Shown: one piece after another, positions 40,303 through 60,025 of the stretch
Position numbering within the stretch: the first letter of the stretch is position 1
Layout of the letters: every line of letters starts with the position of its first letter
DNA from: Liolophura sinensis
Taxonomy: Eukaryota; Mollusca; Polyplacophora; Chitonida; Chitonidae
DNA length: 64,000 bases
Assembly: GCF_032854445.1 (NCBI RefSeq)
Contig: NC_088300.1
Coordinates: 40,452,458-40,516,457, forward strand
Reading direction: 5' to 3'
Position numbers and translations under genes: made by a program
The notes under the pieces: model-generated
What the model saw: only the letters and a program-made list of their open reading frames with translations
What the model was told of the DNA's origin: nothing
Databases searched by the model: none

Positions 40303-41095
40303 CTTTTCTTTCTCAAAGAAGTTTTTGTATCCGCCGTGAAGTATGTAGATCTCGGGATAACACAGCTGCGGATATCGATCCTTGTTCATCTGCCTGTCTT
40401 GGCGCCTTAAAAATCGAGACATTTTTGGACCTCTTTTAGATGAAAACTCACAGTGAAATATTAGAATGCTTCTTTTCGTTCCTCTACTCCTGGTAATGAC
40501 TGGAACAATCAACTACTGATCAAAAACTCTTTTGCAATGAAAACGACAAAGTGTTTCGTGTACTTGGAAATAAGGTTTTCCACAATACTGTCCTTGGTGT
40601 AATAGTTGACAGCTCCTTTGATGTGGCCGCCTTGAAACTCATAGGGATATCTGCAATCCACAATGAGGAATTCTTCTACTACGTCATCAAACTCTTGGTT
40701 TTGAAGCCGCGCCAAAGTTTCCGGCGTGATGGACATGAGATCTTGAAGCTTGCCTGGAACAGTTGGCAAACAGTAGACACCGATTAGGTCTGGATTTTTC
40801 GACACTGCCGAGGAGAAATAAACATTTAAATACTCTACAGTGTTAATATTTTTAGTATGTGGGTAAAATGCATCTTGCAATAATATTGTAAACAGTTTTG
40901 AGAAGATTCATCATTATTATAATTACCTCTGTCTAGGGCAGTTTTAATTTGATCTTCTGACTGGAAATTGGACGGTCTGAGTAAACACTTGCTTGTCTCC
41001 ATTATGTCGTCAGATCTCTTTCTCTTCTGAACAGGTGACTAATCCTTGTCGCTTTACGAACGCCTTCGCTTTTGGCTATATGGGCAATGTTTTTT
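40303..41095 (-). pseudogene. CDC25: CDC25 relic 1: exons 3 and 2 only, disrupted
   Basis: Exon 3 (40303-40804) still encodes LIVDCRYPYEFQGGHIKGAV and [20 protein letters not shown] with the catalytic Cys. It is split by an insertion of about 59 bp after KDSIVENLISK that brings a stop. The inserted bases match the start of the fused relic at 41459. Exon 2 (40927-41095) has two in-frame stops between the two basic NLS clusters. Exon 1 is absent: exon 2 runs straight into sequence that in intact units lies upstream of the gene. Exon 4 is also deleted. Clearly non-functional. Confidence 0.88.
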
Positions 41096-41458
41096 CCTAC
41101 ACCTTACAACGATATTAACTCGTATTTAATTCCAATGCCAAGTTTCCCATTCATACCCCATAAAACAGTCGCCATCCACTCGCTTTATCACGAAGAAGCT
41201 CCACTTTTCACTTAGTAAAACCTTCTCGGGCACCACTTGATACACATTTTTATGAATGTTGTTTTGTGTTCCGACCACTTATCACTTTTGATTGGTAGCG
41301 TGTAGGTAATCTATGCAAACTTAAACACAATGACGGCACCAGAGACGCTGAGTGCACATAGAGAAATTACAGGCTATACTTGCATGCAACTTGCGCAAGG
41401 GACTCTGCCTTTTACCTATAGTTCATTTATTACCTGTTTTATACTTTCGAAATTCCGA

Positions 41459-41848
41459 ACAATCAACTACTGATCAAAAACTCTTTTGCAATGAAAACGA
41501 CAAAGTGTTTCGTGTACTTGGAAATAAGGTTTTCCACAATACTGTCCTTGGTGTAATAGTTGACAGCTCCTTTGATGTGGCCGCCTTGAAACTCATAGGG
41601 ATATCTGCAAATCACAATGAGGAATTCTTCTACTACGTCATCAAACTCTTGGTTTTGAAGCTTCCACTATTCCACTATCTCTAGAATCTTCGTCTTCTAG
41701 TAGAAAAGTTTCCTTTGCTCAAAAAGTAATCGATCATCGGGGAAAAGATATTGCCTTCCGCTGCATCATCAGACAGCTTAACTGGACTGCGTAATTCCAA
41801 GGAGCAGTCGTCCTCAAACAACTTCTTAGGTAATGAATATGCCATCAT
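41459..41848 (-). pseudogene. CDC25: CDC25 relic 2: exon 3 fragment fused to exon 1
   Basis: The left half (to about 41665) is antisense to the middle of exon 3. It is nearly identical to 40500-40705, including the 59-bp junction segment. It then jumps, after AAACTCTTGGTTTTGAAG, into exon 1 sequence (ATTCCACTATCTCTAGAATC) and continues to the ATG at 41846-41848. Exon 2 and the catalytic loop are deleted. The shared junction with relic 1 points to local gene conversion or duplication after the fusion. Confidence 0.85.
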
Positions 41849-47691: not shown

Positions 47692-49124
47692 TTAAAAGAC
47701 TAATCTCAACGCTGAACCACTCTTCTTTTGCCCAGCCCAGGTTTTAGACTGGCGACGGAATGTTCGCATGTGCTCCCTGAAATCTTCATGGTGCATCGGC
47801 AGAGCGGTCTGTGGCGTGCAGAGTTCCTACAAAGATAAGAATAAACAACATTACTGAAATGTGCCTGAGCATAATATCAAGTACATGGACTTAAACTTTC
47901 TGGTTGTTACTTTTGCATATAGTCTTGCTGGATACCAAAAGCCTAAATAAACAAAATGCTTATGTGCCAACCTTTTCTTTCTCAAAGAAGTTTTTGTATC
48001 CGCCGTGAAGTAAGTAAATCTCAGGATAACACAGCTGCGGATATCGATCCTTGTTCATCTGCCTGTCTTGGCTCCTTAAAAATCGACACATTTTTGGACC
48101 TCTTTGAGATGAAAATTCACAGTGAAATATTTGAATGCTTCTTTTCGTTCCACTACTCCTGGTAATGACTGGTTTGGAAATAAGGTTTTCCACAATACTG
48201 TCCTTGGTGTAATAGTTGACAGCTCCTTTGATGTGGCCGCCTTGAAACTCATAGGGATATCTGCAATCCACAATGAGGAATTCTTCTACTACATCATCAA
48301 ACTCGTGGTTTTGAAGCCGCGCCAAAGTTTCCGGCGTGATGGACTTGAGATCTTGATGCTTGCCTGGAACAGTTGGCAGACAGTAGGCCACGCTGCCGTC
48401 ACTGATCAGGTCTGGATTTTCCGACACTGCCAAGGATAAATAAACATTTAAATACTCTGCAGTGTTAATATTTTTAGTATGTGGGTAAAATGCAACTTGC
48501 AATAATATTGTAAGCAGTTTTGAAAAGATTCACCATTATTATGATTACCTCTGTCTAGGGCAGTTTTAATTTGATCTTCTGACTGGAAATTGGACGGTCT
48601 GAGTAAACACTTGCTTGTCTCCATCATGTCGTCAGATCTCTTTCTCTTCTGAACAGGTGACTCATCTTCGTCGCTTTCCGAACGCCTTCGCTTTTGGCTA
48701 TATGGGCAATGATTTTTCCTAGGCTCGGGCACCTATAGGGTAAAACATCTTTCATTAATTGTTATATTGTTCTGGCAATTCATGCCATGAATTCTATTCT
48801 CCAAAATAATACCACACAGAATGCTGGTAGTGATTACGTAAAACGACATAAACGTGATTTTACCTTACTAAGCTGTATAAAAGGCCTGCTAAAAATCGAA
48901 AGTGGACACTCATCATTGGTGAAACTGTCGTCAAGGCCTATTCCACTATCTCTGGAATCTTCGTCTGCTAGTAGAAAGGACGAGTTCCCTTTACTTAGAA
49001 AGTAATCCATCATCGGGGAAAAGATATTGCCTTCCGCTGCATCATCAGACTGCTTAACTGGACTGTGTAATTCCAAGGAGCATTCGTCCTCAAACAACTT
49101 CTTAGGTAATGAATATGCCATCAT
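47692..49124 (-). CDS. CDC25: CDC25 copy C2 (identical to C1 except near the C-terminus)
   Basis: Exons 48864-49124, 48549-48732, 47972-48426 and 47692-47826. The predicted protein equals C1 except for Ile40 to Leu in the last exon (GSALRLVF in place of GSAIRLVF). Catalytic Cys codon at 48119-48121. Same weak exon 3 donor (GTTGGC). Poly(A) signal AATAAA at plus-strand 47493-47498. Upstream CACGTG at 49427-49432. Confidence 0.92.
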
Positions 49125-49426
49125 AGATAATTTGTTTCTTTGACAGTTAGTTTCAGTAAATACTCGGACTAAAGTTGAGTTTATTAAATTCTGATTTATA
49201 TATCTTGTTGATAAAAAAAACTCCCCGCAGTTCAAGCTAGCCGGAGTTCTGTTTCAATGGCCAATGAAAATTCATGCCATCTCCACATTGCTTGAAAGAA
49301 ACAGTTTGTAGAAAAAACAAGTTAATCACTTTCCGATAATCCAGTTCAGCAATACAGGATTAGCGCTGATGTTCTTTACTCACCACCCAGATTCACTCTT
49401 TACCGCAGGTGTTGTTATCTATATAA

Positions 49427-49432
49427 CACGTG
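49427..49432. promoter_or_regulatory. CACGTG E-box upstream of C2
   Basis: Same position (303 bp upstream of ATG) and same context (TCTATATAACACGTGGGATA) as in C1. Confidence 0.35.
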
Positions 49433-50343
49433 GGATATGCTACATAAAGAAATGGCCACAGGAGGTGAGAAGGGATCATATTTAGCGTCTTCACAGACGG
49501 CAAAATGAACAAGGCTCAATATTTTGACCATGGCCATGCAAGGGAGTGTATGAAAGGCATTCAGTGTCATTACAAGAGGCAAGTGTCAGAAAGATAACAT
49601 TGTTTACGGCTCAAAAATCATTGTTCACAGTTCAAAATCGTATTTATTTCCAATGCCAAGTTCCCCATATGTACCCCATAAAACATTAATTTTCGACTCG
49701 GTTTAATACGAAGAAGGGCGCTTGGAACAACTAGAATGCACTCACCATTTTGTGCTAAGTAAAACCTTCTCAGACATATTTTTACACCACTTGATACACT
49801 TTTTTCATGAATGTTGTTTCCTGTAGTGACCACTTAACACTTTTGATTGGTAGCGTGTAGGTAATCTATGCAAACTTAAAATCACTGACGGCACCAGAGA
49901 CGCTGAGTGCACGTAGAGAAAGTACAGGCTTTACTTGCAGGTAACTTGCGTAAGGCACTCGTCTGCCTTTCAGCTACAGTGCATTTATTACCTGCCATAC
50001 TTCTAAACTCCGAACAATTAACTCCTTAACAAAAACTCTTTTGAAATAAAAACAAGAAAATGTTTTGTGTACTTGTGTCAGCATCTGCCTCATGTCACGG
50101 CTTGCAGGAAACTTATTTTTCGACGGCATGTGTGTTGTATTAATACATTCATGCATGTGCTCAGTAAAATTGTTGCTTGCCTTGTGTTTCATAATCCACG
50201 AAATACCGTTATATTATATCTCGTAACGGGCCACATGGTGCTTTTGCGACAGGTAAACTATGCACGCGGGATACAGTATAATTAGAACATGACTTTTACC
50301 ACACGAATTGCTTCATATCTCTAATTTTTTGCTACAGCATAGA

Positions 50344-50454
50344 TGAACGGCTCTTCTTTTCCCCCAGCCCAGGTCTTAGACTGGCGACGGCATGTTCGCA
50401 TGTGCTCCCTGAAATCTTCATCTTGCATCGGCAGGTAGATCTGTGGCGTGCAAT
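50344..50454 (-). pseudogene. Exon-4-like duplicate (4b), C3 unit
   Basis: Identical to the C2-unit duplicate (46717-46827), as expected from the 3627-bp repeat. Confidence 0.65.
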
Positions 50455-51318
50455 CTATGATTGCGCTTGATTTCGTCATCCATATTATATAAGGGAAAAC
50501 AAACGCTTGGTAAAGGTAATTTCTGCTCATGTTTTTTGGTAGTCCTTCAGAAACGTAAATATTACACAAATTCACTTTCACACAAAGTTTGAAAAGAGTT
50601 TCTCAATGACAGTCTAAAGTCTGGTGTGTACACAGAACAGCCGCTAAAATTTGTTCAAGAAGCAAGGGGGCATGGTGCTGAAAATGTGTCTCATAGTGTG
50701 CATAATCATCGATACGGGTACTACAGTGTGTGCGAATCTCTTATTCTGTCATCAAGCAAGGACTTACAGTCCAGGTGTCAAACATTAATCGTAAATTTTA
50801 CACCCTATATGCATCTGTCACTTTAAGTAAGCTTGAGAGGTCGCTCAACGATTTTCACTATATGTGAATGTCACTTTAGGTGAGCTTGGGGTCGCCTCGG
50901 GGCATGGAAGAACAGTTTGTTTTCTAATGTTTTTAGCCAAACACTACTGAATATGAATTTAGAATCCCGTCAGTCTATAATATTACCCTTCCTTTTTAAA
51001 ATTTAAATGTTTATATTTTCGATTTTTTATTCATACATTTTATTCATATTCTACATATTTTGCTAAGCAGATATCGTAGAAAATAAGAAGAAAACTTAGA
51101 TAACATTCAAAATGCATCTTTTATTTCCGCATATATAGGTCACACACAAACGATAGCACTGGGATAATATCAACAAACAAACAAACAGAGGTGTCAAGAT
51201 TTAAAGAAAAACAGACTATATGTCCACGAACTATTACAGTCTTGATGCGTACAAAACAACAAATGTATGTTTGGTCAACACCCACCATGAAATAAAAAAA
51301 TTAATTGACTTTCACGCC

Positions 51319-52751
51319 TTAAAAGACTAATCTCAACGCTGAACGACTCTTCTTTTCCCCAGCCCACGTCTTAGACTGGCGATGAAAAGTTCGCATGTGC
51401 TCCCTGAAATCTTCATGGTGCATCGGCAGATAGTTCTGTGGCGTGCAGAGTTCCTACAAAGATAAGAATAAACTACATTACTGAAATGTGCCTGAGCATA
51501 ATATCAAGTACATGGACTTAAACTTTCTGGTGATTACTTTTGCATATAGTCTTGCTGGATACCAAAAGCCTAAATAAACAAAATTCTTATGTGCCTACCT
51601 TTTCTTTCTCAAAGAAGTTTTTGTATCCGCCGTGAAGTAAGTACATCTCAGGATAACACAGCTGTGGATATCGATCCTTGTTCATCTGCCTGTCTTGGCT
51701 CCTTAAAAATCGACACATTTTTGGACCTCTTTGGGATGAAAATTCACAGTGAAATATTAGAATGCTTCTTTTCGTTCCTCTACTCCTGGTAATGACTGGT
51801 TTGGAAATAAAGTTTTCCACAATACTGTCCTTGGTGTAATAGTTGACAGCTCCTTTGATGTGGCCGCCTTGAAACTCATAGGGATATCTGCAATCCACAA
51901 TGAGGAATTCTTCTACTACATCATCAAACTCGTGGTTTTGAAGCCGCGCCAAAGTTTCCGGCGTGATGGACTTGAGATCTTGATGCTTGCCTGGAACAGT
52001 TGGCAGACAGTAGGCCACGCTGCCGTCACTGATCAGGTCTGGATTTTCCGACACTGCCAAGGATAAATAAACATTTAAATACTCTGCAGTGTTAATATTT
52101 TTAGTATGTGGGTAAAATGCAACTTGCAATAATATTGTAAGCAGTTTTGAAAAGATTCACCATTATTATGATTACCTCTGTCTAGGGCAGTTTTAATTTG
52201 ATCTTCTGACTGGAAATTGGACGGTCTGAGTAAACACTTGCTTGTCTCCATCATGTCGTCAGATCTCTTTCTCTTCTGAACAGGTGACTCATCTTCGTCG
52301 CTTTCCGAACGCCTTCGCTTTTGGCTATATGGGCAATGTTTTTTCCTAGGCTCGGGCACCTATAGGGTAAAACATCTTTCATTAATTGTTATATTGTTCT
52401 GGCAATTCATGCCATGAATTCTATTCTCCAAAATAATACCACACAGAATGCTGGTAGTGATTACGTAAAACGACATAAACGTGATTTTACTTTACTAAGC
52501 TGTATAAAAGGCCTGCTAAAAATCGAAAGTGGACACTCATCATTGGTGAAACTGTCGTCAAGGCCTATTCCACTATCTCTGGAATCTTCGTCTGCTAGTA
52601 GAAAGGACGAGTTCCCTTTACTTAGAAAGTAATCCATCATCGGGGAAAAGATATTGCCTTCCGCTGCATCATCAGACTGCTTAACTGGACTGTGTAATTC
52701 CAAGGAGCATTCGTCCTCAAACAACTTCTTAGGTAATGAATATGCCATCAT
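51319..52751 (-). CDS. CDC25: CDC25 copy C3, catalytic loop intact
   Basis: Exons 52491-52751, 52176-52359, 51599-52053 and 51319-51453. Cys251 codon at 51746-51748, loop HCEFSSQRGPKMCR kept. Differences from C1/C2: Lys for Asn at residue 94 (PRKKHC), Phe for Leu at 230, [13 protein letters not shown] for TRSSGTKRSIQIF, Met for Ile in LCYPEMYLL, and exon 4 with TPQNYLPMHHEDF, TFHRQSK and WAGEKKSRS. The exon 3 donor is better (GTAGGC). The last base of exon 1 is A, not G (AAA|GTAAAA), a mild donor weakening that is silent for the Lys codon. Upstream CACGTG at 53054-53059. Confidence 0.91.
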
Positions 52752-54985: not shown

Positions 54986-56418
54986 TTAAAAGAATAATCT
55001 TATTGCTGAACCACTCTTCTTTTGCCCAGCCCACGTTTTAGACTGGCGACAGAATGTTCGCATGTGCTCCCTGAAATCTTCATGGTGCATTGGTAGATAG
55101 GCTTGTGGCGTGCAGAGTTCCAACAAAGATAAGAATAAACAACATTACTCAATTGTGCCTGAGCATAATATCAAGTACATGGACTTAAACTTTCTGGTGA
55201 TTACTTTTGCACATAGTCATGCCTGTTACCAAAAGCCTAAATCAACAATATGCTTATGTACCTACCTTTTCTTTCTCAAAGAAGTTTTTGTATCCGCCGT
55301 GAAGTAAGTAAATCTCAGGATAACACAGCTGCGGATATCGATTCTTGTTCATCTGCCTGTCTTGGCTCCTTAAAAATCGAGACATTTGTGGACCTCTTTG
55401 AGATGAAAATTCAGAGTGAATTATTAGAATGCTTCTTTTCGTTCCACTACTCCTGGTAATGACTGGTTTGGAAATAAGGTTTTCCACAATACCGTCCTTG
55501 GTGTAATAGTTGACAGCTCCTTTGATGTGGCCGCCTTGAAACTCATAGGGATATCTGCAATCCACAATGAGGAATTCTTCTACTACGTCATCAAACTCGT
55601 GGTTTTGAAGACGCGCCAAAGTTTCCGGCGTGATGGACTTGAGATCTTGATGCTTGCCTGGAACAGTTGGCAGACAGTAGGCCACGCTGCCGTCACTGAT
55701 CAGGTCTGGATTTTCCGACACTGCCAAGGAGAAATAAACATTTAAATACTCTGCAGTGGTAATATTTTTAGTATGTAGGTAAAATGCATCTTGCAGTAAT
55801 ATTGTAAGCAGTTTTGAGAAGATTCACCATTATTATGATTACCTCTGTCTAGGGCAGTTTTAATTTGATCTTCTGACTGGAAATTGGACGGTCTGAGTAA
55901 ACACTTGCTTGTCTCCATCATGTCGTCAGATCTCTTTCTCTTCTGAACAGGTGACTCATCTTCGTCGCTTTCCGAACGCCTTCGCTTTTGGCTATATGGG
56001 CAATGTTTTTTCCTAGGCTCAGGCACCTATAGGGTAACACATCTTTCAATAATTGTTATATTGTTCTGGCAAATCATGCCATGAATTCTATTCTCCAAAA
56101 TAATACCACACAGAATGCTGGTAATGATTACGTAAAACGACACAAACGTGATTTTACCTTACTAAGCTGTATAAAAGGCCTGCTAAAAATCGAAAGTGGA
56201 CACTCATCATTGGTGAAACTGTCGTCAAAGCCTATTCCACTATCTCTGGAATCTTCGTCTTCTAATAGAAAGGACGAGTTCCCTTTTCTTAGAAAGTAAT
56301 CCATCATCGGGGAAAAGATATTGCCTTCCGCTGCATCATCAGACTGCTTAACTGGACTACGTAATTCCAAGGAGCATTCGTCCTCAAACAACTTCTTAGG
56401 TAATGAATATGCCATCAT
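54986..56418 (-). pseudogene. CDC25: CDC25 copy C4: Cys251Ser and lost exon 4 acceptor
   Basis: Exons 56158-56418, 55843-56026, 55266-55720 and 54986-55120. The catalytic codon (55413-55415) is TCT, not TGT, giving HSEFSSQRGPQMSR, so no phosphocysteine intermediate can form and the protein should be inactive. Cys203 and Arg257 are kept. Before exon 4 the acceptor reads CTTTGTTG|GAACTC where all other copies have CTTTGTAG|GAACTC, so normal splicing of the last exon should fail. Exon 4 otherwise remains open, with Arg-to-Cys in TFCRQSK. Exons 1-3 keep clean frames (exon 1 LLEDEDSRDSGIGFDDS). The upstream box is CACGAG. It could be a dead pseudogene or a truncated, substrate-binding variant reading through intron 3. 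Confidence 0.85.
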
Positions 56419-57648: not shown

Positions 57649-57759
57649 TGAACGGCTCTTCTTTTCCCCCAGCCCAGGTCTTAAACTGGCGACGGAATGT
57701 TCCCATGTGCTCCCTGAAATCTTCATCTTGCATGGGCAGGTAGATCTGCGGCGAGCAAT
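57649..57759 (-). pseudogene. Exon-4-like duplicate (4b), C5 unit
   Basis: Reads LPMQDEDFREHMGTFRRQFK then TWAGGKEEPF. Identical to the C6-unit duplicate. Confidence 0.65.
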
Positions 57760-58587
57760 CTATGATTGCGCTTGATTTCGTCATCCATATTATATAAGGG
57801 AAAACAAACGTTTGGTAAAGGTAATTTCTGCTCATGTTTTTGGTAGTCACTAAGAAACGTAAATATTACACAAATTCACTTTTACACAAAGTTTGAAAAG
57901 AGTTTCTCAATGACAGTCTAAAGTCTGGTGTGTACACAGAACAGCCGCTAAAATTTGTTCGAGAAGCAAGTAATAATAGTGTGCATAATCATCGATACAA
58001 GTACTACAGTGTGTGCGAATCTCTTATTCTGTCATCAAGCAAGGACTTACAGTCCAGGTGTCAAACATTAATCGTATATTTTACACACTATATGCATCTA
58101 TCACTTTAAGTAAGCTTGATTGGTCGCCCAACGATTTTCACTATATGTGAATGTCACTTTAGGTGAGCTTGGGGTCGCCTCGGGGCATGGAAGAACAGTT
58201 TGTTTTCTAATGTTTTTAGTCAAACACTACTGAATATGAATTTAGAATCAAGTCAGTCTATAATATTACAATTCCTATTTAAAATTTAAATGTTTATATT
58301 TACGATTTTTTATTCATATCCTACATATTTTGCTAAGCAAATATCGTAGAAAATAAGAAGAAAACTTAGATAACATTCAAAATCCATCTTTTATTTCCGC
58401 ATATATAGGTCATACACAAAAGATAGCACTTGGATAATATCAACAAACAAACAAACATAGGTGTCAAGATTTAAAGAAAAACACACTATATGTCCACGAA
58501 CTAATACAGTCTTGATGCGTACAAAACAACAAATGTATGTTTGGTCAAAACCCACCATGAAATAAAAAATTAATTGACTTTCACGCC

Positions 58588-60025
58588 TTAAAAGACTAAT
58601 CTCAACGCTGAACCACTCTTCTTTTGCCCAGCCCACGTTTTAGACTGGCGACGGAATGTTCGCATGTGCTCCCTGAAATCTTCATGGTGCATCGGCAGAT
58701 AGTTCTGTGGCGTGCAGAGTTCCTACAAAGATAAGAATAAACAACATTACTCAATTGTGCCTGAGCATAATATCAAGTACATGGACTTAAACTTTCTGGT
58801 GGTTACTATTGCATATAGTCTCGCTGGATACCAAAAGCCTATATAAACAAAATTCTTATGTACTTACCTTTTCTTTCTCAAAGAAGTTTTTGTATCCGCC
58901 GTGAAGCAAGTAAATCTCAGGATAACACAGCTGCGGATATCGATCCTTGTTCATCTGCCTGTTTTGGCTCCTTAAAAATCGAGACATTTGTGGACCTCTT
59001 TGGGATGAAAATTCAGAGTGAAATATTAGAATGCTTCTTTTCGTTCCACTACTCCTGGTAATGACTGGTTTGGAAATAAGGTTTTCCACAATACTGTCCT
59101 TGGTGTAATAGTTGACAGCTCCTTTGATGTGGCCGCCTTGAAACTCATAGGGATATCTGCAATCCACAATGAGGAATTCTTCTACTAGGTCATCAAACTC
59201 GTGGTTTTGAAGCCGCGCCAAAGTTTCCGGCGTGATGGACATGAGATCTTGATGCTTGCCTGGAACAGTTGGCAGACAGTAGGCCACGCTGCCGTCACTG
59301 ATTAAATCTGGATTTTCCGACACTGCCAAGGAGAAATAAACATTTAAATACTCTGCAGTGGTAATATGTATGTAATAGTATGTAGGTAAAATGCAACTTG
59401 CAATAATACTGTAAGCAGTTTTGAGAAGATTCACCATTATTATGATTACCTCTGTCTAGGGCAGTTTTAATTTGATCTTCTGACTGGAAATTGGACGGTC
59501 TGAGTAAACACTTGCTTGTCGCCATCATGTCGTCAGATCTCTTTCTCTTCTGGACAGGTGACTCATCTTCGTCGCTTTCCGAATGCCTTCGCTTTTGGCT
59601 ATATTGGCAATGTTTTTTCCTAGGCTCGGGCACCTATAGGGTAAAACATTTTTCATTAATTATTATATTGTTCTGGCAAATCATGCCATGAATTCTATTC
59701 TCCAAAATAATACCGCACAGAATGCTGGTAGTGATTACCTAAAACGACACAAAAGTGATTTTACCTTACTAAGCTGTATAAAAGGCCTGCTAAAAAGCGA
59801 AAGTGGACACTCATCATTGGTGAAACTGTCGTCAAAGCCTATTCCACTATCTCTGGAATCTTCGTCTGCTAGTAGAAAGGACGAGTTCCCTTTTCTTAGA
59901 AAGTAATCCATCATCGGGGAAAAGATATTGCCTTCCGCTGCATCATCAGACTGCTTAACTGGACTGTGTAATTCCAAGGAGCATTCGTCCTCAAACAACT
60001 TCTTAGGTAATGAATATGCCATCAT
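58588..60025 (-). CDS. CDC25: CDC25 copy C5: full frame, catalytic Cys replaced by Ser
   Basis: Exons 59765-60025, 59450-59633, 58868-59322 and 58588-58722. All frames are open and all splice sites good (exon 3 donor GTAAGTAC is the best in the array; exon 4 acceptor CTTTGTAG). Only the active site is lost: codon 59015-59017 is TCT, giving HSEFSSQRGPQMSRFLRSQN. Other changes: Leu for Val at residue 194 (EFDDLVEEF) and Asn for Asp after the loop. Cys-to-Ser at this position is the classic substrate-trapping change in CDC25 and other Cys-dependent phosphatases, so an intact C5 protein might bind CDK without dephosphorylating it. The upstream box is CACGAG. Poly(A) signal at 58390-58395. Confidence 0.9.

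Follow-up and report, generated by a model that had tools for sequence, protein, structure and literature searches.

A full-length CDC25 copy with serine at the nucleophile position in a Liolophura sinensis gene array is probably a near-neutral copy, not an evolved inhibitor

The analyzed window is a stretch of 64,000 nucleotides from Liolophura sinensis (G000:C6:40452458-40516457; genome, 609 Mb) and contains a tandem array of CDC25 genes that extends beyond its right edge. This array (array 1) comprised 11 four-exon units of ~3.6 kb and one broken unit, a copy number that is a lower bound, with a 200-N gap (G000:C6:40534216-40534415) inside the array at its far end. A second array (array 2), oppositely oriented on the same contig and separated from the first by 29 Mb, comprised 22 units, mostly 3354 bases long. 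In addition, seven dispersed CDC25 genes (L011-L017) were identified, and the catalytic Cys was present in all seven. Their catalytic region is interrupted by introns at two points, following GHIK and following PKM; both introns are absent in the arrays, where this region is one exon. An extra exon-4-like piece was observed at 57649-57757, with equivalents (86-92% identical) in each array-1 spacer, ~830-1030 bases 3' of each gene. Its use in frame was rejected by eye, as no in-frame acceptor was found. The features of the array are listed in Table 1.

Table 1. Features of the CDC25 array around copy C5 (window coordinates)
Feature	Position	Strand	Details
CDC25 copy C5, ATG to stop	58588..60025	-	344 aa; gene model; PDB and Pfam matches
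C5 exons	E1 60025-59765, E2 59633-59450, E3 59322-58868, E4 58722-58588	-	GT-AG introns, TAA stop
TCT (Ser) replacing TGT (Cys) nucleophile codon, C5	59015..59017	-	sequence read; exon 3
Shared-variant block in C5	58990..59016	-	59016 Ser, 59003 silent C, 58990 Lys to Gln
TATA-like box TATATAA	60097..60103	-	78 bases 5' of C5 ATG; conserved in array
AATAAA, poly(A)-signal-like hexamer	58390..58395	-	~190 bases 3' of C5 stop; conserved in array
Copy C4	54986..56418	-	Ser codon 55415-55413; private changes S225G, F249I, D275N
Copy C6	62196..63633	-	Cys-bearing; nearest relative of C5 (99.5% identity over the whole unit)
Copies C1-C3	44065-45497, 47692-49124, 51319-52751	-	Cys-bearing; open frames
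Broken first array copy	40303..41848	-	exon 1-3 pieces, parts rearranged/duplicated; HCEFSSKR

The C5 gene model was open from start to stop, with the remaining frame and all splice sites intact, as the earlier note had described. When the C5 protein was compared with the PDB, CDC25A, CDC25B, and CDC25C were the sole matches (human CDC25A at E 6.7e-62; top match, chain C of 8ROZ), and the Pfam Rhodanese family was matched at 4.3e-11, above the cut-off. By sequence, C5 has a CDC25-type rhodanese-fold catalytic domain and belongs to the CDC25 family by descent. The loop motif occurred at 7 sites in the window versus 0.83 expected by chance, which, together with the CDC25A match, indicates that it is no chance match. 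An AlphaFold2 model of the exon-3 domain, made from an alignment of eight array rows, had a mean pLDDT of 34 and was uninformative.

On the minus strand, window positions 59020-59007 read CACTCTGAATTTTC, in which CAC (His, 59020-59018) directly precedes the Ser codon (59017-59015), giving HSEFSSQR. The claim that C5 reads HSEFSSQR instead of HCEFSSQR was thus confirmed, and the Cys-to-Ser change is real in the assembly. The form HCEFSSQR, which the earlier note took as its reference, is the arrays' own version, whereas the dispersed genes read HCEFSSER or HCEFSTER; the P-loop Glu of the dispersed genes and human CDC25 is Gln in the array copies (Lys in two). The adjacent copy C4, which that note did not mention, carries the identical TCT (motif site 55405-55418). 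No Ser form of the loop beyond C4 and C5 was found in a genome-wide pattern search that included the array copies and the seven dispersed genes. Accordingly, neither C4 nor C5 has the HCX5R loop with a Cys nucleophile that marks an active enzyme; open copies with Cys number ~8 in array 1 and ~16 in array 2. Elsewhere, the P-loop reads HCEFLSKR in array-1 copy 67275 (G000:C6:40518295-40519732) and YCEFSSQR in the array-2 copy starting at G000:C6:69855885. Damage was observed in several array copies: the exon-4 acceptor of C4 is destroyed by a change of AG to TG at 55122-55121 (GTTG for GTAG), and further copies are broken by a frameshift at 70883, a 5-base deletion, 29-base insertions (two), and an in-frame TAG.

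C5 and C6 differed at 7 of 2069 spacer positions and at 11 of 1438 gene positions, and they grouped as sisters in every segment tree (exons 1-2; exon 3; the stretch from intron 3 through exon 4; the spacer), with support of 0.98 to 1.0. On these comparisons, C5 is a very recent duplicate with C6. In the coding sequence, the two copies showed eight nonsynonymous and two synonymous differences (dN 0.0098, dS 0.0097), and this similarity of dN and dS fits neutrality, with 8:2 being too few to test selection. The 8:2 ratio was not significantly different from the array-wide ratio (estimated binomial P ~0.2), and faster evolution of C5 than of the array was rejected. In array 1, the mean pN/pS was 0.42, and the distinct private changes were 39 nonsynonymous and 22 synonymous; by this measure, the array genes are constrained as a group and functional in general. 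At the age of C5, approximately two substitutions would be expected on its coding sequence, and since so few changes are expected, the absence of stops and frameshifts is no evidence of function.

The Cys of the HCX5R motif is the catalytic nucleophile. In CDC25A and CDC25B, the mutants C431S and C473S, respectively, are in standard use as inactive or substrate-trapping forms (PMC11316097, PMC13033960), and C5 carries the same change, which is predicted to abolish catalysis. The C5 protein is therefore probably catalytically inactive, and this part of the earlier note's overall reading was a sound inference. The complex 8ROZ contains engineered C431S CDC25A, in which pTyr15 is touched by Ser431, Glu432, Ser435, Glu436, and Arg437; the contacts of CDC25A with CDK2-cyclin A listed in Table 1 of the same paper are K353, Q355, S435, R446, E447, R450, Y455, R506, S513, and K514 (PMC11316097). 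In the alignment, 6/10 of these contacts were kept in C5 (K353, Q355, S435, R446, R450, and Y455), and the other positions were changed (E447S, R506K, S513K, and K514S, in CDC25A numbering). The equivalents of E432 and R437 were kept, E436 was changed to Gln, R520 was lost, and the end of the C-terminal helix was replaced. Most of these contact changes are common to the Cys copies and are features of the arrays rather than of C5, whereas the docking-helix change D269N occurs in C5 alone. Binding of C5 to CDK is plausible from this alignment, perhaps in a weakened form.

The remaining part of the earlier note's reading, in which C5 is maintained as a dominant-negative or buffer, was not supported. 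Under such a model, C5 would be a selected pseudophosphatase that buffers CDC25 activity by binding CDK-cyclin in competition with the active copies. The nucleophile is the sole loss from the active site, with the P-loop Arg and the Glu432 and Ser435 equivalents kept; the docking residues K353, Q355, R446, R450, and Y455 are retained; and HTRF gave a value of 0.11 uM for the binding of human C431S CDC25A to pT160CDK2-cyclin A. Moreover, C5 has an intact TATA-like box, intact splice sites, and an intact poly(A)-like signal, and two copies carry Ser. However, the C5-C6 split is too recent for conservation to be informative, dN is close to dS, and the other Ser copy is decaying without its exon-4 acceptor. 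The basic C-terminal helix, which human CDC25A needs for CDK2-cyclin binding and in which charge reversal abolishes that binding, has diverged, D269N lies in the docking helix of C5 alone, several array copies are broken, and the two Ser copies stand against the far more numerous open Cys copies of both arrays. A selected role is thus unlikely, and a natural substrate-trap CDC25 copy that was spread by gene conversion and rivals its active sisters in binding CDK-cyclin is improbable.

The exon-3 changes suggested a route by which Ser entered C5. All of the exon-3 change fell on the C5 branch (0.0114 versus ~0 for C6), with five changes versus one expected from the spacer branch of ~0.0022, an excess at P ~0.004 (Poisson estimate). 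Three of these five changes, which form the block in Table 1, are common to other copies, indicating imported sequence. The Ser also occurs in C4, the silent C at 59003 in the copy at 52 kb and in two copies outside the window, and the Lys-to-Gln change at 58990 in C4 and in one copy outside the window. In contrast, positions 59584, 59188, and 58963 (plus-strand coordinates of the window) are private to C5, and 59016 distinguishes it from every copy except C4. The three shared variants occur together in no other single copy of the assembly, so that their import would take two events, or else a donor that was not sampled. These patterns suggest that Ser probably spread into C5 by gene conversion, with 58990..59016 as the putative conversion patch. 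A simple conversion from C4 to C5 was rejected as the whole story, as the silent site 59003 differs between them. In the units labelled 49124 and 52751 (47692-52751), the spacers were identical (0/2094 different) and the genes differed at 23 of 1433 positions. Almost all of these differences lie between the middle of exon 3 and exon 4, and most are common to other copies, a pattern of a conversion patch.

The difference at the silent site between Ser and Gln, which a simple transfer fails to explain, also speaks for a variant of the near-neutral reading, distinct in the route alone, in which Ser arose in C5 by its own TGT-to-TCT change, separately from that in C4. Such a double origin is quite improbable, as it needs one base to have undergone the same transversion twice, in two neighboring copies, and leaves aside the second shared variant 26 bases off and the clear conversion patches elsewhere in the array. 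An assembly or haplotype artefact, whether a consensus error or two alleles of a single unit assembled side by side, is very unlikely: near-identical repeats are prone to error, the same array contains a 200-N gap, and the C5-C6 difference is about what two alleles might show, but random error would hardly give an identical TCT in two copies ~6% different, and the units have distinct private variants.

Exchange between copies also appeared to reach beyond array 1. The two arrays were ~77% identical along the unit, whereas exon 3 (58868-59322; array-2 equivalents, G000:C6:69.788-69.860 Mb) was 92-100% identical between them, and the silent divergence (pS) between the arrays was 0.05 in exon 3 versus 0.376 in exons 1-2. 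Exon 3 alone thus looks homogenized between arrays 29 Mb apart, in a manner resembling conversion confined to the catalytic exon. This homogenization is more surprising than C5 itself.

Taken together, with a probability of about 0.72, C5 is a dead, near-neutral copy of a birth-and-death CDC25 array, in which Ser most likely arrived via a conversion patch, and is not an evolved inhibitor. A recent unit duplication yielded C5 together with C6, and the Cys-to-Ser change then entered C5, most likely by a short conversion patch rather than by its own mutation, from a Ser-bearing array copy, either C4 or an unsampled one. The C5 product, if transcribed, would be a CDC25 domain that holds phospho-CDK without hydrolyzing it, and the gene itself would be near-neutral, awaiting loss or reconversion. 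Recent tandem duplication, exchange between copies, and broken copies, the marks of such an array, were all found. On the other side, the array is under purifying selection, C5 has otherwise retained all features of an expressed gene, its 8:2 ratio is not significantly different from that of the array, and a donor with the C5 block is absent from the assembly.

If expressed, C5 would be a natural counterpart of the mutant used to freeze CDC25 on CDK and an example of how gene amplification can give rise to an inhibitor of its own product. If C5 is instead dead, a full-length copy with the active site alone changed would be a chance leftover in a young array copy, which calls for caution. The two arrays further raise the question of why one animal has dozens of CDC25 genes. 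No literature on mollusc CDC25 amplification or on a natural CDC25 Cys-to-Ser copy was found, a weak absence given the incomplete coverage of the search.

Compared with human CDC25A/B/C, the catalytic domain of C5 aligns over nearly its full length to CDC25A and has the P-loop EFSS-x-RGP and the GKHQDL loop; it differs in its Ser nucleophile, in the Gln at E436 shared with most array copies, in its short N-terminal half (~148 residues), and in its divergent C-terminal helix. The engineered traps CDC25A C431S (PDB 8ROZ) and CDC25B C473S have the same Cys-to-Ser change at the same position, whereas C5 is natural, lies in a tandem array, has changed C-terminal contacts, and is a putative trap. 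Similar to pseudophosphatases such as EGG-4/EGG-5, C5 has a phosphatase domain without the catalytic Cys; the functions of those proteins have been demonstrated (PMC8622459), whereas C5 is a very young copy and a candidate.
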